The notes beneath the pieces are model-generated. The model searched no databases and was not told the DNA's origin. It worked only from the letters and a program-made list of their open reading frames with translations. A stretch of 64,000 nt of DNA from the NCBI RefSeq assembly GCF_031312535.1, contig NZ_CP133594.1, forward strand, positions 2,027,934 to 2,091,933, written 5' to 3'. A program made the translations under genes and the position numbers. Shown piece by piece: positions 10,992 to 56,786 of this stretch (positions are counted from its first letter, which is position 1; each line of letters starts with the position of its first letter). Source of the DNA: Methanolobus mangrovi. GTDB lineage: Archaea > Halobacteriota > Methanosarcinia > Methanosarcinales > Methanosarcinaceae.

Positions 10992-12395
10992 TTATCTCAA
11001 CTGCCCTCTGAATTTCTCACAACAGTTGATGTCGATTCCGAGCAATTTCTCGATATTCATCTTTGCTGCAATTCCTTTTGGAGCACCTGCAACTGAAGTG
11101 ATGACCCCGATACCCAGTTCTTCTCTCAATTCTCTCATTACATACTCGTCACTGAGGTCATCTGTGGTTACGTCGAGTTTCTTTGCAACGTAATCCTTTG
11201 CTTCTCCAACTCTCATGCTCTTGGCAAATTCCATCCTTGCAACAAGGTCACCAGCTGCTCTGATTCCGCTCATTCCGGAGGTCATTATGTGGGAGATCGG
11301 CATACCCATCGGGTCGCCGACCCCTACCTATATACCATCCACGCCGGCGATTTCTACCATCGCCTTGCTTGCCCTTGAAACGGCATCAATTGTTGGTGTC
11401 TCGATCATTGGGATACCGCCAACGCCCATACCCATGTTTACATGACATGGAATTGGTGAATCCTTAACAGCCTGCTTGATGAAGGTAACAGCCCTTCCCA
11501 GGTTCCATGCTGCACTCTTGCTGGTGTTGGTATTAACTACAGGTCCGAAAACATTAGCTCCTGCTTTTGCTACAAGTGCTGCCTGCTGGTGTGGCCAGAG
11601 TCCTGCAAGTACAGTACCATCATATTCCATCTCACCGTGCAGACCAAGCATAAGCTCACCGGCCATACCTGCCTCGATATAAATATCAGGATACTGCTTT
11701 CTCAATGCCTCGATTGCATGGAGGGAAGCGAACATGTCACCATCACCTGCAGCACCGATAGTATCAAAGTTCACACCGTCAGCACCTGATGACATCATCC
11801 TCTGCATGATCCAGACAATATCTCTTGTAAGGTGTTTTGCAGCATGCTCCATGGACTCCTGAGCTTCCCTGATCTTGAAAGCCTTCATAAGATCTCCAGG
11901 GTTCTCAAAGGGACCGTCAGGGGTGTAGTAAAGACCCATGTTTGGCATTGCACCGTAGAACAATGGAACAACCATGTTCTGCTGGCAGACTTCCATTGTC
12001 TGCATTTCCTGTGCGATTACAGGTTTTGCAGGTTTGTAACTATAGTCAATGTGTCCGATCTCCATTGTGTCAGCACCAAACGCACGCTCGTGCATCATTG
12101 CACCAACAAGCCTGCTGGATGGAATACCAACACCACTGTTACCCTGGTCACCATCAATTCTGATGGTTCCGATATCGTGGGTTACAGGTACTTCCTTGCC
12201 AAGCTCAACACCAACCATCCTGGAAGGCATGGTAAGGATGTCCACGAGCTGGTCGATCTCATCTTCACTAAGGTTAGGAATGCTACCAAGATCTGCAGCA
12301 TCTGCCATACCGTCTTTCAGGTCAGCAATTATCTGCTCCTTTGTCATGAAGATGCGCTTTCCATCTCCCATTCTCAATTTATATTCTGTTGCCAT
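10992..12395 (-). CDS. mtbB: Dimethylamine methyltransferase MtbB (pyrrolysine protein)
   Basis: A 467-aa enzyme that transfers a methyl group from dimethylamine to MtbC. One in-frame TAG at 11330-11328 gives Pyl356 in VDGI[11 protein letters not shown], and translation continues to a TAA at 10992. The lengths before and after the TAG match known MtbB proteins. A small perfect stem, GGGTC-GGC-GACCC (11311-11323), begins 4 nt after the TAG and may aid decoding. The ATG follows GAGGTGA. mtbC is 14 bp upstream, so mtbC-mtbB form an operon. Confidence 0.96.
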
Positions 12396-12409: not shown

Positions 12410-13054
12410 TTAAAGCAGAAGTTCTTTAGCTTTTACAACAGCTTCACTGGCATTTTCTGCATAACAGTCAGCACCAATCTTTGCAGCCCAGTTCTCTGTT
12501 GCAGGAGCGCCTCCAACCATTACCTTGACACTGTCTCTCATGCCCTGTTCCTTGAGCATCTCGATAACATCCTTCTGTCCCTGGAGAGTGGTTGTCATAA
12601 GAGCGGAAAGACCTACCATGTCTGCGTTGGTCTCTTTTATCTTGTCGATAAAGTCCTGAAGAGGAACATCTCTACCGATGTCGTGAACCTCAAAACCAGC
12701 TGACTGGAGCATGGTTGAAACAATGGACTTGCCAATATCATGGACGTCACCTTCGACTGTACCATTGACAATTACTCCAAGCTTTTTGCTGACAGAGTCT
12801 GCTGGCATATCTGCCTCAAGGAGCTTGACACCGGCTTCCATTGCGCCTGCTGCCATCATTACGTGTGGAAGGAATAACTTGCCTCTTTCAAAGAGAACAC
12901 CTACTTCGTTCATTCCGGCTGCAAGACCTTTCTCTATGATCTCTGCAGGAGGAATACCTTCACTTCTTGCCTTCTCCACAGCAGCTGTTACAACATCGTT
13001 CTTGCATGTGATTACAGCATCTGAGAGTTCTTTGAACATTTCTTCTTTGCTCAT
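12410..13054 (-). CDS. mtbC: Dimethylamine corrinoid protein MtbC
   Basis: A 214-aa corrinoid protein partner of MtbB. The cap domain is followed by the B12 domain with EGDVHDIG, where His105 is the cobalt ligand, and SALMTTT plus VMVGGAP motifs of the family. The ATG follows GAGGT at a normal distance. Assigned MtbC rather than MttC because it directly precedes mtbB and its sequence (FERGKLFLPHVMMAAGAME) is of the MtbC type. Its likely promoter lies near 13213-13229, giving a leader of over 100 nt. Confidence 0.93.
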   Translation of the reverse strand: MSKEEMFKELSDAVITCKNDVVTAAVEKARSEGIPPAEIIEKGLAAGMNEVGVLFERGKLFLPHVMMAAGAMEAGVKLLEADMPADSVSKKLGVIVNGTVEGDVHDIGKSIVSTMLQSAGFEVHDIGRDVPLQDFIDKIKETNADMVGLSALMTTTLQGQKDVIEMLKEQGMRDSVKVMVGGAPATENWAAKIGADCYAENASEAVVKAKELLL

Positions 13055-15168: not shown

Positions 15169-15816
15169 TCAGAAAAGTGCGCTCAGTTTTGCTACTACGT
15201 CAGTTGCGTTCTCTCCGTAGATATCTGCACCGATCTTTGTTGCCCAGTCCTGGGTTACAGGTGCGCCACCGACCATTGTCTTGACAGAGTCGCGAACTCC
15301 TGCTTCTTTGAGCTGTTCTTCGATCTTGATCTGGCTGACCATTGTAGTGGTCATGAGAGCGGATGAACCAACGACATCGGCTTTGTTTGCCTTTACAGCT
15401 TCAACATATGCACTGATAGCTACGTCTCTTCCAAGATCCACTACCTTAAAACCAGCGATCTTGAGCATTGTTGCAACAATGTCCTTACCGATTGAGTGAA
15501 TATCTCCCTCAATAGTTCCGATAACGATTGTTCCCTTGCTAGCTGTTTCTGCACCCTTTGCTTCAAGAGCTGGTGTGAGTACAGCTACTCCTGCGCTCAT
15601 TGCCTCTGATGCTGCAATGACGTGTGGAAGGAATACAGTACCTGCTTCAAACTGGTCACCAACTTCGTTCATACCTGCTGTAAAGCCGTCCTGTATAAGG
15701 TCAACAGGATCGACATCTGCATCAAGACCTTCCTGAGCGATTTCTGCTGCTGCTTCTTCATCAAAATCGAGAATAGCTGCTTTTGCTTTTGCAATAATTT
15801 CTTCTTTTGTTGCCAT
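15169..15816 (-). CDS. mttC: Trimethylamine corrinoid protein MttC
   Basis: A 215-aa corrinoid protein that receives the methyl group from MttB. The cobalt-ligand motif is EGDIHSIG with His107, with Ser in place of the more common Asp. SALMTTTMVSQ and TMVGGAPVTQ follow as in MttC of Methanosarcina. The ATG follows AGGAGGT, and mttB ends 16 bp upstream. Cotranscription mttB-mttC is clear from spacing. Confidence 0.95.
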   Translation of the reverse strand: MATKEEIIAKAKAAILDFDEEAAAEIAQEGLDADVDPVDLIQDGFTAGMNEVGDQFEAGTVFLPHVIAASEAMSAGVAVLTPALEAKGAETASKGTIVIGTIEGDIHSIGKDIVATMLKIAGFKVVDLGRDVAISAYVEAVKANKADVVGSSALMTTTMVSQIKIEEQLKEAGVRDSVKTMVGGAPVTQDWATKIGADIYGENATDVVAKLSALF

Positions 15817-15832: not shown

Positions 15833-17323
15833 TTACATGCTGGCCCTGAATGCTTTGTCAGCCTTCTCTACTACTGCCTGCATATCCTTGAGCAGATCAG
15901 CGTCTATTGGTGTGACTTCGTGGTTCTTCATGATGTCAACGACTTTTTCATGAGCAACCGTTGCGATGTCCTTGGAACCTGCCATTTGCCAGTCTCCGAA
16001 CATGAGTCTGTCAATGATCATTGGGCTGGATGGGAGATCGATGTTCTGTCTTGTTGTTTTGTGTGCAAGGAAGTTGTTTCCAATACCAACCTGGTCAATG
16101 GATTCAACTGCCAATGTCTCCTCGGTTACAGGGATTCCCTGCATTGCCTTCTTTGTCATGGAGATCATATCGTTGTCAAGAACGAGCTGTTCGAGTGAGA
16201 ATGTCATACCGAGCTCAAGCATACCTGCTCCGTACAGGGTGTTTGCACCTGCAAAGGATGGAAGAATTGTTGTCATTGTCTTCTCATGACCAGCCTGGCC
16301 ATCAGGTATCTTGGCATCAGCCTACGAACCAGCAACGAATGTTGGCAGACCGTAGTACTGACCGAGCTTTGCAACAGCTGCACTGATAAGTCCGAGTTCT
16401 GGTGAACCGACTGGTGCTGTTCCTTTCTTGAGGTCGAATGTTGTGGTGGAGCTACCGTACCATACTGGTGCACCTGGCTGGACCAGCTGTGCGAGTACAA
16501 TACCGGAGAGTACCTCTGCGTTGTGGGTAACAAGTGTACCTGCGAGATGTACTGGGGATGATCCTCCTGCCATTGCCATACTGAGTACGTTTACAGGTGT
16601 TCCGAACCTTGCACCCTTTATGATGACCTGACATGCATTGACACTGAGCTCAAGTGGGCTTGTTGGACAAAGCAGTGTTGAGAAAATAGGCTTCTTACGT
16701 GCTTCCTCATCGTCGCCACCATAGTATGCTGTTGCGATCTGCTGGTAGTATTCTACGTTCTCGCCTACAGGGTCGATGTGGTGGAAGTGCTTTGTTGTGT
16801 TCATTAAAGGTGTCAGAGTCTCATGTACGTCCTGTGCACCCTTACCTGCCCAGTCTCTTGCGGAAACTGCAAGTGAATAGTAGTCGATGTTCTCTGCCCA
16901 GTCACAGATCTTTGCTGTGTCTGCGAGGTCCTTCTCTGTTGAGTCGACAGTTGTGTACTTGCCTGGCCCTTCATAGTTACACATCTTGACACCGGTTCCG
17001 AAACAGGTCCAGTGTACCTTTCCTTTGTGCTCCTGTTTGACGTTCTTCTTCTTGTCACGTCCCCAGAGGACGAACTTTGAAGGACAGTCAAGAAGTGCCC
17101 TGTTAACGACATATTCAGGGATCTTTACTACCATTGTCTTTTCATCAACTAAACAGCCACCTTCTTTGAAGATAGCTCTTGCTTCAGCGTCTGAGACCTG
17201 AATACCGGTGTTCATGAAAACATCCATGGTAGCATAGTGAAGAGCTCTAAGATCATCTTCTGAGAAGAGCTCCAGACTTATACCGTCCAATGGACTTCTA
17301 CCTGGGAAAAAGTGTTTTACCAT
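15833..17323 (-). CDS. mttB: Trimethylamine methyltransferase MttB (pyrrolysine protein)
   Basis: A 496-aa enzyme of the MttB/COG5598 superfamily. One in-frame TAG at 16324-16322 gives Pyl334 in FVAGS[11 protein letters not shown], exactly the position known for MttB; reading continues to a TAA at 15833. It is the pyrrolysine-containing subgroup and so a true trimethylamine enzyme rather than an MtgB/MttB-like glycine-betaine enzyme, which lacks the TAG. The start [14 protein letters not shown] is chosen at 17323; the open frame runs 10 codons further but without support. First gene of the mtt operon. Confidence 0.97.
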
Positions 17324-17953
17324 TTTCTTAACCTCCAATATAATTAATTTCAAGAGACCTCATAGAGATCCTTGAGGAAGTGTACATGCATTCCAGCAAT
17401 GTGTTCCTGTATGATAGGTAGAATAAGCTACTATATAAAACTTGCTTGCGGAACTAGTATTTATATTTTGCTATTGCGTTTTTTTTAGAACAAGTATATA
17501 AAGATAACTGTAGACGAAAAAAGAGAACAGATAAAAAAGAAGTTTACTAATACTTATTTTAACTATAATTCAAATAGCCTACAATTCTGAATGAACATAT
17601 TGTGAATTTAGTAGGATATATAGTTTATCATTGCAATTAAACAGTTTTTAGTATATAACTTTTTTGATTGAACGTGTTTCAGTATATAAGTAACACAATA
17701 TATCGAGTGAAAAAATGAAAATACCCAATTGTATCCTTTAATTGTGCCATTTATTCGTAATGCACTTAAAAATAATCCTATATAGCAGTTCCTAATAAGA
17801 GTATAAAATACATTCTAAATAAAAGTATATTCACTCCTTTAGATAGCGTTTTTTTGGTTAACAGCGTGAATAAAATGCCCACAAAATATATATACTTTGT
17901 TTTTGCAACATTCAGACAAATAAAGTCGAAGAAAAAAGAAGGAGTTTACAAAA
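17324..17953. promoter_or_regulatory. Divergent promoter region of mttB and hyuA1
   Basis: 630 bp, strongly AT-rich. The mttB promoter box is at 17454-17471 (GCAAAATATAAATACTAG on the minus strand). On the plus strand, a near-palindromic ACAAAATATATATACTTTGT at about 17881-17900 is the best TATA candidate for hyuA1. More TATA-like runs occur near 17490, 17650 and 17690. No ORF is evident. The size and number of boxes suggest several regulators act here. Confidence 0.55.
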
Positions 17954-19888
17954 ATGAGTTACAGCCTTGGCATAGATGCAGGAGGAACGTACACTGATGC
18001 GGTTCTTCTAAAGGATGATGATAACACCATAATCCAATCCAGTAAAGCATTGACAAGCTATCCGAACCCACTTGACGGAATTAAGCAATCCATCGATAGC
18101 TTGGACCCCATATGCCTTCAAAAAGTAAAAGTTGTATCAGTCTCAACTACACTTTCCACAAACAGCATTCTTGAAGGTACAGGTTCTCCTGTTGCCATGA
18201 TACTTATAGGCAACTATGACATCAAACAAGAACTTCCGACAAGGCATTATTTGCAGATTACCGGAGGGCATGACCATAACGGTATTGAAACCAATGACCT
18301 GGACATCGAATCTATCAAATCTTTTGCTCTGGCCGTCAAGGATAAGGTTTCAGCTTTTGCAATATCCTCATACTTTAGTGTCAGGAACCACGATCATGAG
18401 CTTAGGGCAAAAGAACTCATTCTGGAACTCACAGGCCGTCCCGTAGTCTGCAGCTATGAACTTTCCCAGGACCTCGGAGCCTTTGAAAGAGCTGTTACGG
18501 CATTCCTTAATGCACAACTGATACCTGTAACTGAGAGATTCATGAAAACCGTTGAAGCGGAAATAAAATCAAGGGGAATTGATGCAAAGATATTCATGCT
18601 CAAATGTGACGGCTCGGTCATAGGTATCCAAAGTGCTCTTAAAAAACCTATTGAATCCATTTTTTCAGGACCTGCCGGAAGTCTTGTCGGAGCTTCGTTC
18701 CTCTCAAAAAAAGAGACTTGTGCCGTCATAGATGTTGGAGGAACCAGTACAGACATTTCAGTGATATACAATGGTGTTCCTGAAATGAGCGATTCCGGTG
18801 CCGTTGTAGGCGGGTGGAAAACAAGGGTCAAGGCTATACGTATGGAAACATCAGCTATGGGAGGAGACAGCCATGTATGGGTCAAAGGCAAGGATATAAG
18901 CATAGGCCCCAGAAGGGTTATTCCCTTGTCCAGAGCTGCTGTCCTTTACCCGGATTTTCTTGAACAGCTCACGACAAACCCCATTCCTCCAAAGATACGC
19001 CTGGGAATCAACTATCAGCCAACAAAATTCTACCTGAGAACAGACTATGAGACACTTGAAGCCAGCGATGAGGAAAAAGAGGTGCTTGCTGCCGTAAAAA
19101 TGCACCCCACATCAACAACGGAAATATTCAACCAGATAAAAAAATACCCTTCCAGCAAAGTACTGGACAGCCTTATACAAAAGAGACTTTTGCAGCCTAT
19201 CGGTTTTACACTAACTGATGCCTTGCATGTTCTTGGAGAATACACGGAAAGAGATGTTGAAGCTGCAAATATCGGAGCTGATGTACTTGGTTCACTGGCA
19301 GATATGGATAAATACGAGTTTGCCAGCCATGTCAAGAAAGAATTTGCCAAAAACATGGCATGTGACCTCATATCATTCTTCCTTGAAGGAGTGGATAAGG
19401 AAGAAATTCGTAAAATATTTGACATACAATCACCTGCAAAATTCAAAGTAGAAGTTCCGGTAGTACTGATTGGTGGACCTGTAGCTGCTTTTGTAGAAGA
19501 TCTCCAGGAGATACTGGATGCTGAAATTATCCTTCCTGAGTATTCAAGTGTAGGAAATGCTGCCGGTGCACTGGCTGCCAAGGGAATCAGAAGATTTGAG
19601 GTGCTTATAAGACCCGCCTCAATGGCAGCCCCTGACTGGGAATTCCTTGTGTTTTCAGAACATGGAAAAAGCAATTTCTATGAATATCAGGAAGCACTCG
19701 ACTATGCAGTTACCATGGGAGAAACTACAGTTCTTAGTTACATGAAAGATGCCGGGCTGGATTCAAACCATATAAAAATAGATGTTAAAAAAGAGGAAAT
19801 AATTCCATTGGGATGGAAAACACCAATGGAAACAAAGCTTGTTGTACTCGGTGTTGGGAACAGGAATGTTGACCAGGATTGCTATTAA
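17954..19888 (+). CDS. Hydantoinase/oxoprolinase (HyuA)-family ASKHA ATPase, paralog 1
   Basis: A 644-aa protein of the HyuA/oxoprolinase type. ATP-binding motifs are GIDAGGTYTDAV (residues 6-17) and VIDVGGTSTDIS (about 258-270), followed by METSAMGGDSH (about 297-307). No HyuB partner and no Fe-S cysteine pairs are seen. Relatives hydrolyse N-methylhydantoin or 5-oxoproline, or act in acetone carboxylation, all ATP-dependent; the present substrate is unknown. The ATG follows AAGGAGT. It is divergent from mttB and has two close paralogs (23282 and 25238). The 3' end overlaps the stop of the PAS gene by 4 bp, a tight convergence. Confidence 0.8.
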   Translation: MSYSLGIDAGGTYTDAVLLKDDDNTIIQSSKALTSYPNPLDGIKQSIDSLDPICLQKVKVVSVSTTLSTNSILEGTGSPVAMILIGNYDIKQELPTRHYLQITGGHDHNGIETNDLDIESIKSFALAVKDKVSAFAISSYFSVRNHDHELRAKELILELTGRPVVCSYELSQDLGAFERAVTAFLNAQLIPVTERFMKTVEAEIKSRGIDAKIFMLKCDGSVIGIQSALKKPIESIFSGPAGSLVGASFLSKKETCAVIDVGGTSTDISVIYNGVPEMSDSGAVVGGWKTRVKAIRMETSAMGGDSHVWVKGKDISIGPRRVIPLSRAAVLYPDFLEQLTTNPIPPKIRLGINYQPTKFYLRTDYETLEASDEEKEVLAAVKMHPTSTTEIFNQIKKYPSSKVLDSLIQKRLLQPIGFTLTDALHVLGEYTERDVEAANIGADVLGSLADMDKYEFASHVKKEFAKNMACDLISFFLEGVDKEEIRKIFDIQSPAKFKVEVPVVLIGGPVAAFVEDLQEILDAEIILPEYSSVGNAAGALAAKGIRRFEVLIRPASMAAPDWEFLVFSEHGKSNFYEYQEALDYAVTMGETTVLSYMKDAGLDSNHIKIDVKKEEIIPLGWKTPMETKLVVLGVGNRNVDQDCY

Positions 19889-22479
19889 GCACCTGGTTCT
19901 TTTATAAGCGAAGAAATGGAAATGAGGACATCCTGTCCTCCCCAATCTCCAATTGTAAACTTTGACTTGACCGGCACAAGAATCCCCTCCCTGCTAACAA
20001 GAGGAATCTCGCACGTTGATGATTTACCTGCCATTATCTCATCAAGAGTTGAAAGAACATCATCTTCCCAGTCTTCCGGGTAAAGCATGAGGAAATCTTT
20101 CATTTCAAGCTCTTTTTCAGAATAGTTCAGGCTTCGGACCAGAGATTCATTTATGTGAAGTATCTGCCCCTCAATATCCATTATGAAAACCATCTCATCA
20201 AGGGCATCAAGCAGGGAATTAAGGTTGTTTTTGCTTTTTTGGGCACCTGAATCCTTCTTAATCCGGGATATTATGATACCTACCTGATTTGCAATTGTTT
20301 CGATGAGATTTCTTGAGTTTGCCGGTATCTCCAGTTCGGTGTGGGAACCAAGAATAATAGCTGCAACAAGCGAATCATTGAATTTAACGGGTATGAATGC
20401 CATTGCCTGTAATCCCTCATAATCAAGATTCTCAGTATGCATCATCACATTGATCTCATAGAAATACTTGTAAACCGGATAACCGGTTGTGAAAAGACGC
20501 GACATTAAAGTATTAGAACCAAAATGGGATAACGAAGTCACAAAACTTTCAGAAAGACCCCGATAAGCCGTAGCATCAAAATCACCGGTGACCTGATCGA
20601 CTAAGTATATGATACCGGAATCTATTGATTTGGCTTCTAGCGTGAAATCAAGGAGTTTCTCAAATGTTTGCTCAAGACCTGCAGTCTCCCCCAGTACATT
20701 GTCAAGATCACACTCTATACGCATAAAATTATTAGCCTGCTTGCGTTCAGTTATGTCTACAATAATACCCTGAAGGTAATCCACTATACCGTCTTCATCA
20801 TAGTGAAGCATGGTTCTTTCATCAACCCATCTTACTTCACCTGATTTTGTCAGTATCCTGTATTCCTGACTGAAATCTGAAAATCCTTCTTTTGAAGCTC
20901 TCTCTACCCCTTCCCTTACCCTTTGCAAGTCAGAAGGATGGATAATATCACCGTAGATGATCTTTCCTGAAAGGAAATCATTAACTTTGTACCCGAACTG
21001 CCCGATATTGTCTGATACGAATTCCACAGGCCAGTCCTTTTCAGGCTTCCAGAGGAACACTATTGCAGGACTCGAGCTCATGATGGACTCAAGAACCCTG
21101 CGCATCCTGAGTGCTTCATATAAGACTTCGTTTGTATGCTTATACTGGACAAGCTTCCACATACCTTCCATTAGAAGTGTTAGTTGGCGAACATCTGATT
21201 CGTCGTATTCCAATAGTTTGTTAGCCACTCCTGCCACTGCAACTACCTGATCATTATAGAATACAGGGATGGTTACATGCCGAAGCATTTTTTCTTTTGC
21301 TCCCGGGTAGATATCATCAAGATGTTCAGAATCATAATGAGTATTGACAATTACGGGTTTTCTCTCACGTATTGCTTCGCCCCAAAAACCTGTTGACTTT
21401 ACAGGATGGACAAAGCTTTCCCCATTATGGCGCAAATATTCTCCGAGATCATTAGGCCACTGATAGGTTTCAAGCACATTTTCGTCTTCGTTCAAAATTT
21501 CAAGATAACCTATTTTACTATTGGTGAGTTCGACGGCCTTCTGGATAGCATACTCAGCAATTTCATGCATCGGCAAATCCTGCATCTGATAGAGTTTCAA
21601 AAGAGCCTCAAGGCGCATTTCATTCAGATTGATTAATTCCTCATCTTTTTTGCTCTTTGCAACATCTTCCATTATTCCGATACCGCCCAGCAAAGAGCCG
21701 TCATCATCCATAACCGGAGTGAAATTTGCCTTGATGATCATCCTTCTTCCACTTATGCTGGAAATATATTCGCCTTCATAATAACCGGGATTGCCCAGAA
21801 AAACAACATCTACAGCATTTCTCAGTTTTTCATCATTTAGCGATGAAAGAACACTGAATCCAATTATCTTCTTCACAGGTGCTCCAATAATATCCGAGAA
21901 ACTCTTGTTGCAGTGGGTGATAAGACCGTTTTCATCAAAATAGATGATACCCACCGGGGAACTTTCAAATATTACCCTATATTTTTTTCCGGTTTCCAGA
22001 AGTTCTCTCTCAGTGCTCTCAAGTTCGGTATTATCAATGATTATACCCTGGAAATGAGTTATGTTGCCTTCTTCATCCCTTTTTATAAATGACCTTTCAG
22101 TTACCCAGCGTACTTCACCTGATTTTGTCAGTATTCTATAATTAAGGGAGAAATAGGAAGTGTTCTTTTTTTCAGAATGCTTTTTGACCTCAAAATGTAT
22201 TCTTTCAAAGTCATCCGGATGGACGATGTCTCCGTAAAGTAACTTCCCTGTGAGAAATTCTTCCGGATCATAACCTAATTGAATAACATTTCCGGATACA
22301 GATTCAACAGGCCATTGATCTTCTGCTCTCCACAGGAAAGATATTACAGGACTACTATTATAGACAGCTTCAAGTTTCTTGTCTATTGAATAGGGAGTTG
22401 GAGTGGTCTTCCCGTGAGCTTTATTTTCTTCTGACTTTTTAGCAACTGAAATATTTATCACTCCTTGATTTGCATCCAT
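19885..22479 (-). CDS. PAS/GAF multi-domain sensor without a kinase module
   Basis: An 864-aa soluble protein. Order by eye: PAS (about 38-150), PAS (155-270), GAF (about 285-440), PAS (450-560), GAF (570-720), PAS (740-855). PAS 1 and PAS 3 are clearly alike (both with SGEVRWV and a GDI-HP-D pattern) and resemble a PAS domain in the kinase at 46782. There is no histidine-phosphotransfer or ATPase domain after the last PAS; it stops at LISISSLIKEPGA. Related methanogen sensors (MsmS type) continue into a kinase, so this one is either truncated or works by protein contact. Related PAS/GAF proteins can bind heme. Confidence 0.8.
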   Translation of the reverse strand: MDANQGVINISVAKKSEENKAHGKTTPTPYSIDKKLEAVYNSSPVISFLWRAEDQWPVESVSGNVIQLGYDPEEFLTGKLLYGDIVHPDDFERIHFEVKKHSEKKNTSYFSLNYRILTKSGEVRWVTERSFIKRDEEGNITHFQGIIIDNTELESTERELLETGKKYRVIFESSPVGIIYFDENGLITHCNKSFSDIIGAPVKKIIGFSVLSSLNDEKLRNAVDVVFLGNPGYYEGEYISSISGRRMIIKANFTPVMDDDGSLLGGIGIMEDVAKSKKDEELINLNEMRLEALLKLYQMQDLPMHEIAEYAIQKAVELTNSKIGYLEILNEDENVLETYQWPNDLGEYLRHNGESFVHPVKSTGFWGEAIRERKPVIVNTHYDSEHLDDIYPGAKEKMLRHVTIPVFYNDQVVAVAGVANKLLEYDESDVRQLTLLMEGMWKLVQYKHTNEVLYEALRMRRVLESIMSSSPAIVFLWKPEKDWPVEFVSDNIGQFGYKVNDFLSGKIIYGDIIHPSDLQRVREGVERASKEGFSDFSQEYRILTKSGEVRWVDERTMLHYDEDGIVDYLQGIIVDITERKQANNFMRIECDLDNVLGETAGLEQTFEKLLDFTLEAKSIDSGIIYLVDQVTGDFDATAYRGLSESFVTSLSHFGSNTLMSRLFTTGYPVYKYFYEINVMMHTENLDYEGLQAMAFIPVKFNDSLVAAIILGSHTELEIPANSRNLIETIANQVGIIISRIKKDSGAQKSKNNLNSLLDALDEMVFIMDIEGQILHINESLVRSLNYSEKELEMKDFLMLYPEDWEDDVLSTLDEIMAGKSSTCEIPLVSREGILVPVKSKFTIGDWGGQDVLISISSLIKEPGA

Positions 22480-23057
22480 CTTTTTGATTATACATTCGCT
22501 GGGACAGAATTAACGTCGTATAATGGGTTGGATATAAATGATTATTTGTATTTGGCAGATGAAGCATTTTGCCAATATATAATGTTAACGGTTTTGAGTT
22601 TTAATTAATCATACATATAAGTTGTGACCAAAATAAAAAAATGCAGCGTTTGGCCCTTTTCAGTATAAAAAGAACGACGAATACCACTCTTTTCAAAATA
22701 TAAACAAATAGCCAATTACACAAAATATATATGCAGAAACTATTTTAGCTCATTTTCTGATTTAAAAAATAGGCCTTCAGAATAGAACGACTATTTTTGT
22801 ATTAGATCAGAATATAGCACGATTAATTGAACCTGCATGATTTAACTATATATATCTTTCTTTCAGAGATCATAGCCATTATTGTAAATAATTAAAAGAA
22901 TAAACGATATCAATAAGCACATTAAGCTCATAAACTGATTGTGGTAATAATTTGCTACCATGCAAAAATATAAGTACTAGAAATTGCATAAGGAGTAAAT
23001 GAGATTAATCAAATTGTCTTGATTGTAATTGGGTCTATATCATGACACATAATCTCT

Positions 23058-23129
23058 GTAGAAATTCTACCTCCTTCAATTGCTCCTTCGTTTTACCTCC
23101 ACTAAAACAAATAGGAGCAATGTTTCTAC
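23058..23129 (+). promoter_or_regulatory. Leader hairpin before hyuA2
   Basis: Outer arms GTAGAAA (23058-23064) and TTTCTAC (23123-23129) and inner arms ATTGCTCC (23079-23086) and GGAGCAAT (23114-23121) pair to give a two-part stem of 15 bp. It lies about 75 bp after the likely promoter and just before the 37-aa ORF, a layout typical of leader control. Confidence 0.45.
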
Positions 23130-23157
23130 AATAAATTTGTTTTTTGAGGGTTATAGA

Positions 23158-23271
23158 TGTCTTTATCAAAAACAAGATATGTCGAACTTTTTAGTTTTAG
23201 GGTGACTCATTCCCTGAAGAACGCAAGTACTGTTTTCAAGAAAGATAGCCTGAAGGCAAAAAGCACCTAGG
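23158..23271 (+). CDS. 37-aa leader ORF ending in UAG before hyuA2
   Basis: ATG at 23158 follows GAGGG at 8 nt and opens a basic 37-aa peptide beginning MSLSKTRYVELF. It ends at TAG (23269-23271), and the last two bases of this codon are the first two of the AGGAGGT site of hyuA2. If the UAG were read as pyrrolysine, only three more codons would follow before a TGA that overlaps the hyuA2 ATG (TGATG). It could be a leader peptide; there is no proof it is translated. Confidence 0.4.
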
Positions 23272-23281
23272 AGGTACTTTG

Positions 23282-25237
23282 ATGTACTACAGTCTTGGAA
23301 TAGATGCCGGAGGCACTTATACTGATGCTGTGGTGATACGAGATTCTGATGGAAGCATAATAGATTCCACGAAATCCCTTACAACTTATCCGGACCTTTT
23401 GACAGGTATAAAGAATACCTTGGACGGACTGGACCCTCATTTTCTTAAAAATGTCCGTTATGCTTCAGTTTCAACAACACTTGCAACAAACAGTGTTCTT
23501 GAAAAAACAGGATATCCCGTAGGACTTATTCTTGTCAATGATACGGACATACCAAACAGGGCAAAGATAGAACATTTCACTCTTGTAAATGGAGGGCATA
23601 ACAGTGCCGGAAATGAGATCTGCCCTCTTGACATGGACTCTGTCAGGGATTTTGTTCTCAGGGTCAAAAATAAAGTTTCTGCTTTTGCAATCTCATCATA
23701 CTTCAGCGTACGCAATCCCGAACACGAGTTGAAAATCAAGGAACTGATAACTGAACTTACAGGCCTTCCGGTGGTTTGCGGACATGAACTATCACAGGAC
23801 CTTGGAGCGTATGAAAGGGGAGTTACAGCATACCTTAATGCGCAGTTAATCCCTATAGCCAGCCACTTCATGGAAGCCGTCAGTTCCGAAATAGAAAGAA
23901 GGAATATTGATGCAAAGCTTATGATGCTCAAATGTGACGGCTCCGTTGTTAGCATCAGTGAAGCTTTGAAAAAACCTATCGAATCCGTATTTTCAGGACC
24001 TGCGGCAAGTCTTGTCGGAGCAGCCTACCTTTCAGGAAATGAGGATTGCGCCGTCATAGACGTTGGGGGCACAAGCACAGACGTTTCACTGATACACCGA
24101 GGAATACCGCAGCTCAGCGAATCCGGTGCGATTGTCGGAGGATGGCAGACAAAGGTCAAGGCCATACGCATGGAAACATCTGCAATGGGTGGAGACAGCC
24201 ATGTGTGGGTCAGGAACCATGTAGTCAACATCGGTCCGAGAAGAGTAATCCCACTCTGCCTTGCTGCCATTGAATATCCGGAAATCATTGAGAAGCTTAA
24301 ACAGAATCAGGTAATACTCCGTAACCAGATTGGAGAGAACCTGCAACCCACCAAGTTATTTGTCAGGTCCGGACTGCAGGCTCCGGATATCAGTCCTGCA
24401 GAAGAAGAACTGCTATCAAGAATAGGTGACAGGCCACTAACTGTCAGCGATATATACTGGAACGAGAACAGGCTTCCAAATCCAGGAACACTTGACCTGT
24501 TGATTCAAAAAAGGCTTATCAAAGCAATTGGGTTCACACCCACAGATGCCCTGCACGTACTTGGAGAATATAAAGAGTGGAACAGGGATGCATCCTTACT
24601 GGGAGCCGCTATACTGGCAGCACTTTCCGGGATCGATGAAGATGAACTTTGCATCCGGATAAAAAAGGACGTAGCCAGAAACATGGCACTGAACCTTATA
24701 TCTTTCCTGCTTGAGGGAATCAGCAAAGAAGAAATAGAAAAGGTCCTTATGGGGAAATTCTTTGCAAGGTTCAAGGCAGACCTGCCTGTTGTCCTGCTTG
24801 GAGGACCGGTCAAAGCATATGCAGATGAACTTGCAGGTTTCATAGACGCACATATACTGGTGCCAGATCATTGCAGCGTGGGAAATGCGGTCGGTGCTGT
24901 TGCAGGAAAGGGCACAAAAAAGCTTGAGATACTCATTAAAGCGAACTACACTCAATCCAAATATAATCTGAAAACATCATCTTTTGTTACCTTTTTCCCT
25001 GGAGGAAGGGAAGAGTTCGCATCACACCACGAAGCCCTGGAGTTTGGTGAAGAAATGGGAACTAAACTCATCATGAACTATATGGCCGACTCTGGGATGG
25101 ATACCGATGGAGTTAGTATCGATATGCATCGTAATGATATTGTTACGCATGAAGGAGGAATTCCTGTGGAAACAAAACTCATTTTCTCAGGCATTGGCCA
25201 GGCAAGAAAAACAAGAACAACAGTGGAGATAGATTAA
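23282..25237 (+). CDS. Hydantoinase/oxoprolinase (HyuA)-family ASKHA ATPase, paralog 2
   Basis: 651 aa, very like the proteins at 17954 and 25238. GIDAGGTYTDAV near the N-terminus, VIDVGGTSTDVS near residue 260 and METSAMGGDSH near 300 are conserved. As in its paralogs, the C-terminal part has a LGGPV phosphate-like turn and SVGNAVGAV. Start at ATG 23282, 5 nt after AGGAGGT. The next paralog begins directly after the TAA (TAAATG), so they are one operon. Function unknown; see paralog 1 for alternatives. Confidence 0.8.
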   Translation: MYYSLGIDAGGTYTDAVVIRDSDGSIIDSTKSLTTYPDLLTGIKNTLDGLDPHFLKNVRYASVSTTLATNSVLEKTGYPVGLILVNDTDIPNRAKIEHFTLVNGGHNSAGNEICPLDMDSVRDFVLRVKNKVSAFAISSYFSVRNPEHELKIKELITELTGLPVVCGHELSQDLGAYERGVTAYLNAQLIPIASHFMEAVSSEIERRNIDAKLMMLKCDGSVVSISEALKKPIESVFSGPAASLVGAAYLSGNEDCAVIDVGGTSTDVSLIHRGIPQLSESGAIVGGWQTKVKAIRMETSAMGGDSHVWVRNHVVNIGPRRVIPLCLAAIEYPEIIEKLKQNQVILRNQIGENLQPTKLFVRSGLQAPDISPAEEELLSRIGDRPLTVSDIYWNENRLPNPGTLDLLIQKRLIKAIGFTPTDALHVLGEYKEWNRDASLLGAAILAALSGIDEDELCIRIKKDVARNMALNLISFLLEGISKEEIEKVLMGKFFARFKADLPVVLLGGPVKAYADELAGFIDAHILVPDHCSVGNAVGAVAGKGTKKLEILIKANYTQSKYNLKTSSFVTFFPGGREEFASHHEALEFGEEMGTKLIMNYMADSGMDTDGVSIDMHRNDIVTHEGGIPVETKLIFSGIGQARKTRTTVEID

Positions 25238-27163
25238 ATGCAATACAGTCTGGGAATAGATGCCGGTGGAACTTACACAGATGCGGTGATCGTCAGGAAT
25301 TCAGATAGGAGAGTTATCGACTCGAACAAGGCACTTACCACCTATCCCGACCTGCTGGCAGGTATAGAGAATGCCATAGACGGGCTTGACAGCAAATACC
25401 TGCCTGAAGTAAAACTTGTATCAGTATCTACAACACTTGCCACCAATACCATACTTGAGAAAACAGGGTATCCTGTTGCTCTTATTCTTATAGGGAAACA
25501 CACCCTGCCTGCAAATCCGCCAATCGATGATTTCATTGTAGTGAGAGGCGGACACAATGTTACAGGAACCGAAGATGAGACTCTTGATCTTGAAGCTGTC
25601 AGGGAATATGCCCTGAAAGTAAAAGACAGGGTGTCCGCATTTGCTGTTTCCTCATATTTCAGTATCCGAAACCCTGACCATGAAAAGAAAGTAAAGAACA
25701 TTCTCACTGAACTCACAGGACTGCCAATAGTTTGCGGTCATGAACTATCGCAGGACCTGGGAGCCTACGACAGGGGTGTTACGGCATATCTGAATGCACA
25801 GCTTCTTCCCATAGCAGACCAGTTCATCCATGCTATTCTTACTGATATTGAGAAACGCGGGATCAATGCGAAACTCATGATGCTCAAATGTGATGGCTCA
25901 GTGATAGGTATCCATGAAGCCATGGAAAAACCCATAGAGTCCATATTTTCAGGACCTGCTGCCAGTCTGATGGGAGCTTCCTTCCTCTCTAATAATGATA
26001 CGTGTGCGGTTATCGACGTGGGAGGAACAAGCACCGATGTCTCACTGAATCATAATGGATTGCCCGAACTTGTTGATACCGGAGCAGTAGTTGGCGGCTG
26101 GCACACGAAGGTCAAAGCCATACGCATGGAAACTTCCGCAATGGGCGGGGACAGCCACGTTTGGATCAAGAACCGCGGTGTCAATATCGGACCACGCAGG
26201 GTAATACCTCTCTGTCTTGCTGCTGTAAAATATCCGGGATTCATGGACCAGCTCGCATCCGGAAGAACTCCTTCAAGGGTGCAGCTTGCGGAAAATATTC
26301 AGCCCACGAAATTCTTTGTCAGAACAGGCAAAGAGGCGACAAATCTCAGTTCATTTGAAAAGGAGCTTCTTGAAACAATAGGTATAGAACCTGTTTCCAT
26401 TAATGATATTTTCTGGAAGATTGGAAAGCCGATGTCTGCAGACCATGTAGATGCACTGATACAGAAAAGACTTGTCCAGGCAATAGGATTCACACCTACC
26501 GATGTGCTGCATGTACTTGGAGAATACACAAAATGGAACCGTGAAGCCTCACTTACCGGTGCGAAAATCCTTGCAAGACTGACACCCATGGATGAAAATG
26601 AGCTTTGCTTACATATCAAAAAGGAAGTCGCTATCAACATGGCACTCGACCTTATGAGTTTCATGTTCAAGGGTGTTGAAAAATCTGAGATAGAAAAGAT
26701 AATCCGTGGCGAGTTCTTTTCACAGTTCAAAGTGAATGTCCCGGTAGTACTGCTAGGCGGACCTGTGCATTCCTATGTTGAAGAACTTAACAAACTGATA
26801 GAAGCAAACATCATAGTTCCCGAGCACGCAGATGTGGGAAATGCAGTTGGAGCACTTGTAGGAAAAGGTGTCAAGAGTATAGAGATACACATCAAGTCAT
26901 TCTACAAGAAAACAGAAAGGACCATTCTTGTATTCTCTCCAGTGGAAAGAAGGGAGTTCTCTACTTATTCTGAAGCTTTTGAATATGCAAACGAACTCGG
27001 GAAGAAACTGATACTTGAATATATGGAAGAATCAGATATCAAAGCAGAAGACGTTAGTATCGATATCAAACGAGAGGATATTACAATGATCGAAGAAGGC
27101 GGTGCTCCTATTGAAACAAAACTGATCTTCCTTGGAACGGGAATCTCAGATACCGAAAAATGA
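25238..27163 (+). CDS. Hydantoinase/oxoprolinase (HyuA)-family ASKHA ATPase, paralog 3
   Basis: 641 aa, starting at an ATG that follows the stop of paralog 2 with no gap; GGAG inside the upstream gene serves as ribosome-binding site. The same ATPase motifs are present (GIDAGGTYTDAV, VIDVGGTSTDVS, METSAMGGDSH). A pair of adjacent, not fused, ASKHA proteins suggests a hetero-oligomer with paralog 2. No HyuB-like subunit is found. A terminator hairpin overlaps its stop codon, and tRNA-Pyl follows 188 bp later. Confidence 0.8.
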   Translation: MQYSLGIDAGGTYTDAVIVRNSDRRVIDSNKALTTYPDLLAGIENAIDGLDSKYLPEVKLVSVSTTLATNTILEKTGYPVALILIGKHTLPANPPIDDFIVVRGGHNVTGTEDETLDLEAVREYALKVKDRVSAFAVSSYFSIRNPDHEKKVKNILTELTGLPIVCGHELSQDLGAYDRGVTAYLNAQLLPIADQFIHAILTDIEKRGINAKLMMLKCDGSVIGIHEAMEKPIESIFSGPAASLMGASFLSNNDTCAVIDVGGTSTDVSLNHNGLPELVDTGAVVGGWHTKVKAIRMETSAMGGDSHVWIKNRGVNIGPRRVIPLCLAAVKYPGFMDQLASGRTPSRVQLAENIQPTKFFVRTGKEATNLSSFEKELLETIGIEPVSINDIFWKIGKPMSADHVDALIQKRLVQAIGFTPTDVLHVLGEYTKWNREASLTGAKILARLTPMDENELCLHIKKEVAINMALDLMSFMFKGVEKSEIEKIIRGEFFSQFKVNVPVVLLGGPVHSYVEELNKLIEANIIVPEHADVGNAVGALVGKGVKSIEIHIKSFYKKTERTILVFSPVERREFSTYSEAFEYANELGKKLILEYMEESDIKAEDVSIDIKREDITMIEEGGAPIETKLIFLGTGISDTEK

Positions 27164-27350: not shown

Positions 27351-27422
27351 GGAAATCAGATCAGGTTGATCGAATGGACTCTAAATCCGTTCAGTCGGGT
27401 TAAATTCCCGAGGTTTCCGCCA
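27351..27422 (+). tRNA. pylT: tRNA-Pyl (anticodon CUA)
   Basis: 72 nt including an encoded CCA (27420-27422). The acceptor stem GGAAATC pairs with GGTTTCC with one G-U; the discriminator is G. All special features of tRNA-Pyl are seen: a single base between acceptor and D stems, a tiny D loop (AGGTT, 5 nt) between GATC arms, a 6-bp anticodon stem around CTCTAAA, a 3-nt variable loop (CAG), and a T loop TTAAATT lacking the usual TTC. The anticodon CTA is at 27381-27383. It decodes the UAG codons of mtmB, mtbB and mttB and is charged by PylS (50806). It stands alone, 23 kb from pylS. Confidence 0.95.
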
Positions 27423-29153: not shown

Positions 29154-30173
29154 TTAGTATTTGTGACTCTTTGCCACTTCTATCATTGCCTGAAGGTTCA
29201 TGGTAGCTGTCTTGCTGACAGTACCGCATCCCGGTGCAAGCAGACCTACGCCTGCATCGATGACTTTCTGCGACTGCTCCCTAATCTTTTCGGGTGTCTG
29301 GTTCCAGAGCATGTTCACAGGGTCAAGGTTACCGACAATGACAGCCTTTTCAACGTTAGCCACAGCAGCTGCTGCATCAACATTCTGATCTACACTAATG
29401 GCATCAACACCACATGATTCCATAAGTGCAAGACCCTGGGTTGTGTCACCACATATGTGCAATACTACAGGTACGTTGACCTCGTGCATGGCATCTATTA
29501 TCTTTTTGTGGAAAGGAACGACGAACTTTTCGTAGAATTCAGCACCTATCAACTGGTAACTTGCCGTTGGGTCGATAATGACCATGGTATCAGCACCGTT
29601 CTCCACCATTTTCTGTGCATAGGCAATACTGAACTCGGTAGTGAATTCCATGAGTGCAAATGCAAATGCTTCGTCTGTGAAAATGGCCATGAACCACTCG
29701 TCACCGTTGATATGCTGTGCAAGCGAGAATGGCCCGATCATGCTTCCCATTATCGGAAGTTCATCACCGTACTTATCTGCCAGTATTCTGGTAGCATCAC
29801 AGACAACACTTATCCTGCCTTCACTAAGATCGTAACCTTTGAGTTTTTCGATGTCTTCTACTGTTTTTACAACATGACCGACAACAGATGGTTGCTGCTC
29901 CATTGTACCATCTTTTATGTCACATCCGAAGAACTCAGCTTCTGCAGTTATATCGAAAGGTACACGTACAGCCTCGAATCCGACTACGGTGTGACCTGCT
30001 TCGGCAAGTATTGCCATCTTTTCTGCATCACTGTTAGCCTCTGGCCAGAAGGCGCCACAGGCTTCCATCTGCTCCACAGTGCCTGTCTGGGTAACACAAA
30101 CCGCAGGCATTCTGTCAACAGACTGACCGGTAAGTGCACGGGATAATCTTTCTTTTGGGGTATATTCTGTCAT
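29154..30173 (-). CDS. mtbA: Methylcobamide:coenzyme M methyltransferase MtbA, copy 1
   Basis: A 339-aa zinc enzyme (uroporphyrinogen decarboxylase fold) that moves the methyl group from methylated MtmC, MtbC or MttC to coenzyme M. The zinc site is His239, Cys241 ([10 protein letters not shown]) and Cys316 (APGCG). The start at 30173 follows AGGAG; the open frame extends to 30221 without support. It follows mtmB2 by 96 bp with a hairpin (TGACTGG/CCAGTCA, about 30195-30219) between, so it may be read from the mtmC2 promoter. The protein is close to mtbA2 at 38838. Confidence 0.95.
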
Positions 30174-30269
30174 GATCTGGGCTCCTGAAGAAGAGATGAC
30201 TGGCGCATGCACACCAGTCACCTCGGAGGGGGGCGGAGGCTATATTCTGTCTTATAGATACAAAATGTC

Positions 30270-31646
30270 TTAGAAGGAAAGACCAAGCTCTTCGAGCTTC
30301 CTGCGTGCATCTGAGTAGACCTTCATGTACTCATCAGTTGGTGTTACGGTAGCAATGTCGTAACATTCCTGGAAGGTCTTTCCTGCTGGTGCGTTCGCAT
30401 AGTTGTTCTCATATAGCTTGACAAGGTCATCAAGCACCTGGTTGACCGTCTCGATCTCCATGCCTGCTGTTGCCCTTGCGACTTCTCCCATCATTCTTGC
30501 TTCCATACCTGTGGTCTTGTCCTGGACAACACCCTTTGCAGCTGCCACACCGGAGAGGATCTCACGGCCGGATGCTGTGTCAGTTATGGACTGAGCGGAT
30601 GCTTCAAGCAGACACATCTCGGTACATGGACCTGCACATGGATAGTACTGGTTACCGGAAAGCATGTCAGTGAATTCTGAGATTGTTGCACATGCCCATC
30701 CTGCGATCATGAGGGTTTCCCTGGTGTTGGTTGATCCCCAGCGGATGTGAACTGGTCCGTCAAGGTGCCAGCTTGCATTGCTCATTACAAATGCATTGAT
30801 GTGAGTTGCGATATCTACAATTGTGGTTTCTTCTACGCCACCGGCATATCCACCAAAGATAGGCATCTGTTCATCCATGATGATGTCACTGTTACCCTGA
30901 TAGTGGGCCATTACACAAATTGCGTCAAGGTCGATCTTAAGCTCGTTGAGCTGGGATACTTCGTGACTGTCACTGCAAACCATGCCACCGACACAGTCTG
31001 AAGCGATATTTCCCTGAGCGGACAGGGAAGTCTCTGGTCCCTATATGCCCATGCCTGGCCTTCCGGCCATTGCAGCTGCGGTCTTGATCAGCCTTGTTTC
31101 GGTCTTGGCTGCAAGAACTTCGTATGGGCTCTTTGGTATTGGTGGTTTGCCACGGACTGTCATCATGACACCGTTTACGATGGTGTCGACTTCCTTCTCA
31201 AGAGCGTAGCTCATGTGAACTGGCATGAACATGTCCTCAGAAATTGGGGAACCTGTTGGACCACCCTGGACTATTGGCTTTCTCTTGTCGCCAACACTTC
31301 TCTTCTGGACCCTTACAGCGTCTCTGCCGGTTCCGATTGTGAATTCCTTCTGGACATTGTTGAGAGCGTCCCAGATCTCATCCTCTGTGTATTTTACTAC
31401 ACGGCTTGTGTCGGTACAGAAGATACCACAGTCAAGTAACATCTCGAAACCTGCTTTGAACAGGTTTTCCATCATGTCCTTGTCGGTAGGAACGAACTCG
31501 TTCTTGAAATCAAGATTATATTTCTGTTTGAGCTCCATTGCCTTCATAGGGATTGTCATAAGGTCCCAGTCATCCTGAGTAACTTTCTGTCCCTTCTTTG
31601 CACGCTCATAAAATTCAAAACAATCAAGTGATCTTGCGAATGTCAT
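30270..31646 (-). CDS. mtmB: Monomethylamine methyltransferase MtmB, copy 2 (pyrrolysine protein)
   Basis: 458 aa with Pyl202 encoded by the TAG at 31043-31041. The active-site context GMGI-Pyl-GPETS is identical to copy 1. From 30871 to its start the DNA is identical to copy 1, while the 3' part differs at scattered sites, for example ELYENNYANAPAGKTF-like changes near the C-terminus. A PYLIS-like hairpin lies at 31010-31029. The operon order is mtmC2-mtmB2-mtbA1. Confidence 0.97.
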
Positions 31647-55148: not shown

Positions 55149-56786
55149 ATGTATGTGATATCCCTTGACCTTGGAACAAGTGGTTTCAGGTCACAACTTA
55201 TCGATCTTGATAAGAAAGAGACTGTAAAGACCGTAATTACAATGGGTCATCCGCTTCCCGGTGGAAATGTCATGGACCACCTTGATTTTGCCATGAGTAC
55301 CGGAACGGATGTTGCTCACAGGCTGATCATTGAAACTGTAAAGGAAATACTTGAAAAGTTCGATGTTGAACCTGAAAAGATAGAGCGTATAGCAGTCTGC
55401 GGAAATCCCATACAACTCTCACTTTTCCAGAATATGGAGATAAGGGACCTTGCATATGCAGGTGAGAACAAACAGGCAGCTCTTGGAGTGAAGGATATCA
55501 AGAGGGATGCCAGGATATTCCCTGCAAATGAGATCTTCAAAGGCATCTTTGAAATGAATAACTGTGAGATCATCGTTCCTCCGGCTATCAAACACGAGAT
55601 AGGGGCCGATGCTCTTGCCATGATGCTGGAAACGGATTTCATTCACCAGACAGAACCATGTCTTGTTACTGATTACGGGACAAATGCCGAAATGGCACTG
55701 AAGATCGGCGACAGGATAATGACCGCAAGTGCGGCCGCTGGTCCTGCTATCGAAGGACAGGGAATTGCATGCGGAATGCTGGCAGGTCCAGGGGCTATAA
55801 GTGATGTGAACAGTGAAGGGGACTGGTGGCGGCTCACTGTACTTGACGATACAATGACTCCCATAAAGGGACCTCTCGTTGATCCGATCACAGGGGATTG
55901 CATTGAAGGCTGCATTGTAAGACCCAAGGGAATCACCGGTACAGGTGTGATCTCGACAATAGCACTTGCACTGAAAGAGGGACTCATAAAAAAGCTACCA
56001 CAGCTGCCTAATGGCGAACTCATACTTGGGGATAGTATCGTTATCACCAACAAGGATGTAGAAGAGGTTGGCAAGGCCATCGGAGCCATAAGGGCAGCAC
56101 ACATGACCCTTATGGTCGAAGCAGGAATGAAATATGAGGATCTGCGTTATTCATACATGTCAGGGGCAACAGGAACCTATGTTGACGCTGATAAGGCCAG
56201 GCATATCGGTTCTGTTCCCGGTTTCTCCCAGGGTATTGTCCAGTTCGGTAATACTTCCATAGGTCTTGCAAGGAAGATAGCAATCGACAGGTCAAAACTA
56301 GATGAGGTTATCGCTGTTGCAAATAAGATACAGGCAGACCATCTTATGATGGCTACCAGTGAAACTTTCAAGGATATCTATGTCTGCGAACTTTCGACCT
56401 GGCAACATGGAATGCCCACTGAAATGTATAAGCAGATGCTGGAAATGTATGGAATTCCCGTATTCCCACAGGACCTGGAAAAAGTGGAGATCGAAAAAAG
56501 GGTTTCCAGGGATATAGACGATGTCGGAACCCTTGGTCTTGATATTGTGGCAAATATCGGAATAACCCTTGAAGCGCCGGTGGAAAAATGTATTCTTTGC
56601 CACAAGTGTGAAGAGGAATGCCCCGAGGATGCAGTTGTTATCATTGAAAAGGACGGACAGAGATTTGCCAATATTGACAGCCAGCACTGCCTGGGTACAA
56701 GCTGCAGGCGTTGCGTGACTATTTGTCCTGAGCAGACCATGAACCACAGTATTTTGAAGATACAGGAAAAAGGACAGAAAAACTGA
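55149..56786 (+). CDS. ramA: Corrinoid reductive activase RamA
   Basis: A 545-aa protein that reduces inactive Co(II) corrinoid in MtmC, MtbC and MttC with ATP. The ASKHA-type core starts VISLDLGTSGFRSQ; AGENKQAALGVKD and DYGTNAEMAL are family signs. The C-terminus has two [4Fe-4S] motifs: CILCHKCEEECP (about 479-490) and CLGTSCRRCVTICP (about 513-526). It is the last gene of the pyl operon, 26 bp after pylD, so activation and pyrrolysine supply share one transcript. Confidence 0.95.
   Translation: MYVISLDLGTSGFRSQLIDLDKKETVKTVITMGHPLPGGNVMDHLDFAMSTGTDVAHRLIIETVKEILEKFDVEPEKIERIAVCGNPIQLSLFQNMEIRDLAYAGENKQAALGVKDIKRDARIFPANEIFKGIFEMNNCEIIVPPAIKHEIGADALAMMLETDFIHQTEPCLVTDYGTNAEMALKIGDRIMTASAAAGPAIEGQGIACGMLAGPGAISDVNSEGDWWRLTVLDDTMTPIKGPLVDPITGDCIEGCIVRPKGITGTGVISTIALALKEGLIKKLPQLPNGELILGDSIVITNKDVEEVGKAIGAIRAAHMTLMVEAGMKYEDLRYSYMSGATGTYVDADKARHIGSVPGFSQGIVQFGNTSIGLARKIAIDRSKLDEVIAVANKIQADHLMMATSETFKDIYVCELSTWQHGMPTEMYKQMLEMYGIPVFPQDLEKVEIEKRVSRDIDDVGTLGLDIVANIGITLEAPVEKCILCHKCEEECPEDAVVIIEKDGQRFANIDSQHCLGTSCRRCVTICPEQTMNHSILKIQEKGQKN

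Follow-up and report, generated by a model that had tools for sequence, protein, structure and literature searches.

What might three ATPases of the HyuA type be doing in the methylamine gene cluster of a methanogen? The 64,000-nucleotide stretch of Methanolobus mangrovi DNA analysed here (the window, G000:C1:2027934-2091933, from a single-contig genome of 2.62 Mb) carries three intact open reading frames for such proteins, hyuA1, hyuA2 and hyuA3, with the trimethylamine methyltransferase gene mttB on one side and tRNA-Pyl on the other. The association of their family with corrinoid methyltransferases is strong, and we tentatively favour the reading that these HyuA-derived ASKHA ATPases serve corrinoid methyltransferases, by ATP-driven loading, opening or repair of corrinoid proteins alongside the reductive activase RamA, a mechanism suggested by the gene neighbourhood. 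The annotation of these proteins as hydantoinases is probably wrong. The three genes are:

hyuA1, 17954..19888, plus strand: 644 residues, with the Pfam domains Hydant_A_N and Hydantoinase_A, in the mttB-linked clade of the tree
hyuA2, 23282..25237, plus strand: 651 residues, a HyuA-type ASKHA ATPase, first of a tandem pair
hyuA3, 25238..27163, plus strand: 641 residues, a HyuA-type ASKHA ATPase, second of the tandem pair

Each gene has a plausible start codon; that of hyuA2 (ATG at 23282) is preceded by GGAGGT, with an alternative TTG possible at 23279, and its stop directly abuts the start of hyuA3 (TAAATG). The product of hyuA3 shares 54% identity with that of hyuA1 and 60% with that of hyuA2.

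Distribution and genomic linkage of the family

The genome that contains the window has seven members of this family, of which the other six are 48-61% identical to hyuA3. Four of the seven lie outside the window. The first is flanked by mtaCB, for methanol, and a gene of the mtaA type, and genes for a RamA homolog and a CobW GTPase lie upstream; the second follows mcrBDCGA and a radical SAM/SPASM gene; the third belongs to a series consisting of a fused corrinoid-UROD methyltransferase (MtsD/F/H type), hyuA, a chaperonin-like gene, a UROD methyltransferase and RamA; and the fourth has an acyl-CoA synthetase and Sir2 nearby but no methyltransferase. The contexts that recur across eleven Methanosarcinaceae genera are mttB, mtaCB and the mts operon with its chaperonin and RamA, as well as mcr in the window's genus (g1) and in g25, presumably Methanomethylovorans. 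In eight complete Methanosarcinaceae genomes, a corrinoid-protein gene (PF02607) lies within 5 kb of 16 of 37 loci where 1.9 would be expected, an enrichment of about eight-fold whose exact tail of 1e-11 overstates the linkage, as the loci are partly orthologous and not independent. Family copy number follows the number of corrinoid proteins (Spearman 0.95, n = 10; partial r 0.85 given genome size).

A class-wide search, with presence defined as a match at E < 1e-100, found the family in 103 of 112 Methanosarcinaceae (f1) genomes. Within the Halobacteriota sample of 393 genomes, matches of that strength occur in f1 only, and the other families of the class have only more distant HyuA proteins, with the exception of G069 in family f2. 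This genome, 80% complete and 3% contaminated, carries a 75%-identical copy (G069:C55:3758-5677, L045), which may represent contamination or transfer. Nine f1 genomes have no family member; MtaB is likewise missing from eight of them and present in the ninth (G169). In g4, which may be ANME-3, MtaB is absent from all seven genomes tested, and two g4 genomes with a single family copy keep it beside mttBC.

The Methanosarcinaceae tree, supported by SH-aLRT values only, resolves a separate mts clade, a tandem-pair clade, an mttB clade, mta clades and an mcr clade, the last grouping with a second mta-linked copy. hyuA1 falls in a clade with orthologs beside mttBC in G186 and G187. The first-pass annotation had regarded the three genes as a candidate part of methylamine metabolism and had allowed for a role in pyrrolysine metabolism. 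Neither is supported as such: paralogs occur equally at methanol (mtaCB) and methylsulfide-type systems, which need no pyrrolysine, some family carriers show neither MtaB nor MtmB, and among the loci tested, tRNA-Pyl linkage is local to g1 and g25 and is not seen in Methanosarcina or the other genera. A pyrrolysine-specific link is, therefore, rejected.

The mcr-linked member is found at L010:8678-10726, L053 and L056, with the radical SAM gene intervening in g1. A general tie to MCR is rejected, as the MCR-bearing genomes G029, G182, G183 (g4), G190 and G232 (f7) have no family copy.

The same association appears in another phylum. A search with a tRNA-Pyl pattern yielded 22 stretches, most of them from Methanomassiliicoccales, Methanomethylophilaceae or Thermoplasmata, and 15 of the 17 genomes tested contain homologs, between one and five per genome, the best of them scoring 268-395 bits at 32-37% identity, against 85 bits for the classical HyuA of the window's own genome. 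This Methanomassiliicoccales branch of the family is 31-38% identical and separately expanded. Thirty of 243 Thermoplasmatota genomes have matches at E < 1e-90, separated by a clear gap from the remainder, which begin at 1e-35. MtaB is present in 24 Thermoplasmatota genomes, 22 of which also have the family (table 22/8/2/211, Fisher p 1e-22, which takes no account of relatedness). Eight genomes carry the family but not MtaB; MtmB is found in two of these and MCR in seven. The neighbours in this phylum are mostly enzymes, namely corrinoid-plus-UROD methyltransferases, mttB/mttC/mtbC/mtbB, MtaA and RamA, and within 5 kb a corrinoid protein is encoded at 39 and a methyltransferase at 40 of 60 genes (raw rates). 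A joint tree unites the Methanosarcinaceae copies in a single clade (99) and puts those of Thermoplasmatota into two groups outside that clade, indicating that the expansions in the two phyla are separate. Alike neighbourhoods (mtt- and mts-type loci) in spite of separate expansions make the strongest case for a function.

The location of the three genes had prompted the proposal that they handle corrinoid proteins or methylated substrates. Such a role is supported by the distribution among methylotrophic methanogens of two phyla and by linkage far above chance. Homologs are not found mostly in genomes that lack methyltransferases. That the proximity is mere hitch-hiking, without a functional link, might be argued from the roughly half of loci that are unlinked and from the non-independence of orthologous loci, but it is very improbable in the face of the eight-fold enrichment, its repetition in two phyla whose expansions are separate, the absence of the family together with MtaB, and the scaling of copy number with corrinoid proteins.

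Beyond the archaea, a plasmid search returned full-length homologs at 33-35% identity, with 21 plasmid records at E < 1e-60 for the Mesorhizobium query. Two Mesorhizobium loci (L188, L191) have an MttB-family gene and betaine transporter genes within a few kb, and in Azoarcus (L187) an MttB-family gene is about 7 kb from a GGDS-type HyuA homolog. No MttB-family gene was found within 9 kb in the Sinorhizobium, Rhodobacter and Aliiroseovarius loci. The bacterial link to MttB-family and betaine genes is a lead only.

Relation to HyuA and RamA

All three window proteins match Hydant_A_N and Hydantoinase_A at 101-114 bits (Pfam cut-offs 22.9 and 25.2), and the phosphate motifs DAGGTYTD and DVGGTSTD and the METSAMGGDSH stretch, which the first-pass annotation had picked out, are present in each. 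Across 66 sequences from two phyla, D8, G10, G11, D15, D260, G262, T264, D267, G507 and P509 are invariant. The ASKHA phosphate-1, phosphate-2 and adenosine motifs are conserved, so that the ATP site is, as judged by sequence, intact. Across the wider family, only GGD of METSAMGGDSH is invariant and S nearly so, and H307 is unconserved in the Thermoplasmatota members.

Like the window proteins, HyuA, 5-oxoprolinase A, N-methylhydantoinase A and acetophenone carboxylase subunits (PF05378, PF01968) belong to the ASKHA fold family and have the phosphate-1 and phosphate-2 motifs, and the structures 6yra, 7hk5 and 5l9w in the PDB match the window proteins over approximately residues 2-322. The PF01968 match is confined to profile positions 1-145 of 291, that is, the first half. 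The genome also encodes a classical HyuA+HyuB system, a single fused gene of 1216 residues outside the window (31% identity, HyuA scoring 85 bits), in which Hydant_A_C is present, whereas this domain was undetected in the three window proteins; the second half of the family proteins is unlike HyuA. The family further differs from HyuA in occurring in multiple copies linked to methyltransferases, in lacking HyuB, and in having GGDS where the genome's own fusion has GGGS. The bacterial homologs and subfamily B of Methanosarcina likewise have GGDS. No HyuB-like sequence exists anywhere in the window by tblastn, in agreement with the earlier reading, and HyuB is adjacent in 0 of 114 loci (the window, the four paralog loci of its genome, 49 other Methanosarcinaceae and 60 Thermoplasmatota), with the positive control found. 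A HyuB partner is, therefore, rejected.

These observations bear on the idea that the family consists of metabolic enzymes, which would use ATP to hydrolyse or phosphorylate a small cyclic amide or lactam bearing a methyl group and so free a methylated substrate for the methyltransferases, in the manner of HyuA with HyuB. The homology to HyuA, including 5-oxoprolinase, N-methylhydantoinase and the caprolactamase alpha subunit, is real, and bacterial homologs lie near betaine transporters on some plasmids. Nevertheless, the lack of HyuB at all loci, the half Hydantoinase_A profile without Hydant_A_C, unlike the genome's classical fusion, and the presence of 4-9 paralogs over methanol, methylsulfide and amine systems, which would call for equally many cyclic substrates, make such an enzyme improbable.

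RamA and RACo (PF14574) are likewise ASKHA ATPases encoded in corrinoid methyltransferase clusters, and operons or clusters common to the family and RamA could indicate a second reductive activase, driving Co(II) to Co(I) like RamA with electrons from a separate Fe-S protein. However, the Fe-S clusters of RamA are indeed lacking, as had been noted from the letters: CxxC occurs in none of the three window proteins, whereas the RamA encoded at 55149 has ferredoxin domains. RACo_C_ter was undetected in the three, and profile similarity to RamA is undetectable (hhalign probability 0.2%). The family occurs in addition to RamA, and RamA-type genes stand in the same clusters, so that the job appears to be taken and a second activase seems unlikely.

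GlmL/MutL (PF13941) and the EutA/DdrA reactivases are ASKHA ATPases associated with B12 enzymes. They are different families from the window proteins, and the functional likeness would be one of analogy alone. PF13941 scores above its cut-off (27) in hyuA2, hyuA3 (32.2 bits) and one Thermoplasmatota member, but the matches are short stretches of about 50-65 residues at 25-36 bits and do not extend over the whole length of MutL/GlmL.

Possible loading or repair of corrinoid proteins

To our knowledge, it is not established how the corrinoid proteins of methylotrophic methanogens acquire their cobamide. The pathway as purified consists of the substrate methyltransferase, the corrinoid protein, the CoM methyltransferase and RamA, and we know of no candidate for what the cell needs beyond these. 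The ATPase family, conserved in two phyla and with copies for the different substrate systems, offers a direct candidate for a cobamide maturation step. As a whole it is a large, unstudied group of ATP-using proteins, probably helpers that load or repair methyl-transfer enzymes.

Two published experiments are consistent with this idea. Purified MttB, MttC and RamA, with ATP and Ti(III), are able to methylate MttC from trimethylamine in vitro (PMC9842639), so that neither catalysis nor the reduction of a loaded protein requires the ATPase. A corrinoid protein of an acetogen lacked cobalamin when produced in E. coli and took it up in 3.5 M betaine (PMC8604678), so that a loading factor could have a place. 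Together with the maturation-type neighbours of the family (RamA, CobW GTPase, a divergent chaperonin and DUF1638), these results favour maturation or repair, and the weak MutL/GlmL similarity is counted on the same side. In the proposed scheme, there would be roughly one paralog or pair for each corrinoid methyltransferase system. ATP would drive the opening and closing of the two lobes of the ATPase, and this motion, transmitted to the corrinoid protein or to its methyltransferase, would load cobamide or expel damaged cobamide. RamA would then reduce the corrinoid protein, the ATPase thus being a maturation or repair factor that acts next to RamA and does not replace it. A wider version, in which system-specific ATPases load or repair tetrapyrrole cofactors (cobamide and perhaps F430), with bacterial relatives serving betaine demethylases, and constitute a missing maturation step of methylotrophy, is possible but on balance doubtful.

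Several findings weigh against loading or repair, a role suggested by gene context and analogy. Eighteen of the 60 Thermoplasmatota genes and about half of the Methanosarcinaceae loci are unlinked to a methyltransferase. MtaB occurs without the family in G169, G563 and G717, and MtmB in G557, and the family is consequently not strictly required. In g1 and g25, a copy stands behind mcr, whose enzyme holds nickel F430, and the client may, therefore, be broader or different. The AlphaFold model of the three window proteins (pLDDT 44) is unusable.

Hydantoinase-annotated genes have been described in comparable positions, and are likened here by description only. MA4395 and MA4396 of M. acetivorans are predicted hydantoinases downstream of mtaCB2 (PMC11619418), and a hydantoinase, 'HydA', is encoded in glycine betaine clusters of acetogens and of strain DCMF, the DCMF protein being more abundant on glycine betaine (PMC9768040). 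In the passages of the two papers that concern these proteins, no role is proposed for them. The novelty of the family's role is provisional, subscription journals lying mostly outside the literature covered.

Genes of other families accompany the ATPases at several loci. In the mts operon of eight genomes (L012:10686-12320; L059, L063, L069, L077, L086, L092, L097), the gene after hyuA is a divergent Cpn60/thermosome-like one, which may encode a chaperonin dedicated to that methyltransferase. Six Methanosarcinaceae genomes have genes of the DUF1638 type (PF07796) close to family members (L055:11064-11933, L067, L074, L078, L084, L094); a DUF1638 protein of Ruegeria has a predicted role in cobalamin recharging (PMC12478193). 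CobW-type GTPases are found near hyuA at methyltransferase loci of both phyla (L009:3857-4990; L127, L131, L146-L150, L157, L166, L174, L178, L179, L184).

Genes around the three ATPases

The neighbours of the three genes in the window are:

mtbB, 10992..12395, minus strand: dimethylamine methyltransferase, amber-split (TIGR02368)
mtbC, 12410..13054, minus strand: dimethylamine corrinoid protein (NF041607)
mttC, 15169..15816, minus strand: trimethylamine corrinoid protein (PF02607 match at G000:C1:2043510)
mttB, 15833..17353, minus strand: trimethylamine methyltransferase, two same-frame open reading frames split by TAG (amber, pyrrolysine)
PAS/GAF sensor protein, 19885..22479, minus strand: separates hyuA1 from hyuA2 (Pfam PAS/GAF)
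tRNA-Pyl (pylT), 27351..27422, plus strand: downstream of hyuA3 (ARAGORN), as it is near hyuA3 orthologs of g1 and g25
mtbA, 29154..30221, minus strand: methylcobamide:CoM methyltransferase (NF041608)
ramA, 55149..56786, plus strand: Fe-S reductive activase of corrinoid proteins (TIGR04270; RACo_C_ter and Fer4)

mttB is divergent from hyuA1 and 600 bp upstream of it, and the product of mttC is a likely client of the HyuA-type ATPase. pylSBCD, followed by ramA, are at least 23 kb from the hyuA genes. Homologs of the PAS/GAF protein stand beside mttB-hyuA loci in G001, G144, G186 and G187, and such proteins, together with FilR1-type regulators, are frequent neighbours of the family. The ATPases could accordingly be imagined as sensors or regulators, ASKHA switches that read methyl-donor or corrinoid status and act on FilR1/Msr regulators or PAS/GAF kinases. 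This is rather unlikely, as the Pfam scan of the three window proteins revealed neither a DNA-binding nor a signalling domain, regulators are missing from the vicinity of many loci, and the recurrent Thermoplasmatota neighbours are mostly enzymes. A DUF1638 remnant was sought in the 22480-23280 gap and none was found.

The window also has three mtmB-like copies (8720-10096, 30270-31646 and 42594-43970), each with an in-frame stop at the pyrrolysine position. A HyuA subfamily of shorter proteins (about 570 residues) is encoded in Thermoplasmatota between ramA and a corrinoid gene of the mtaC type (L169:7284-8945, L171:6831-8492), and in Methanosarcina beside a gene with a histone-deacetylase domain (L065, L073).

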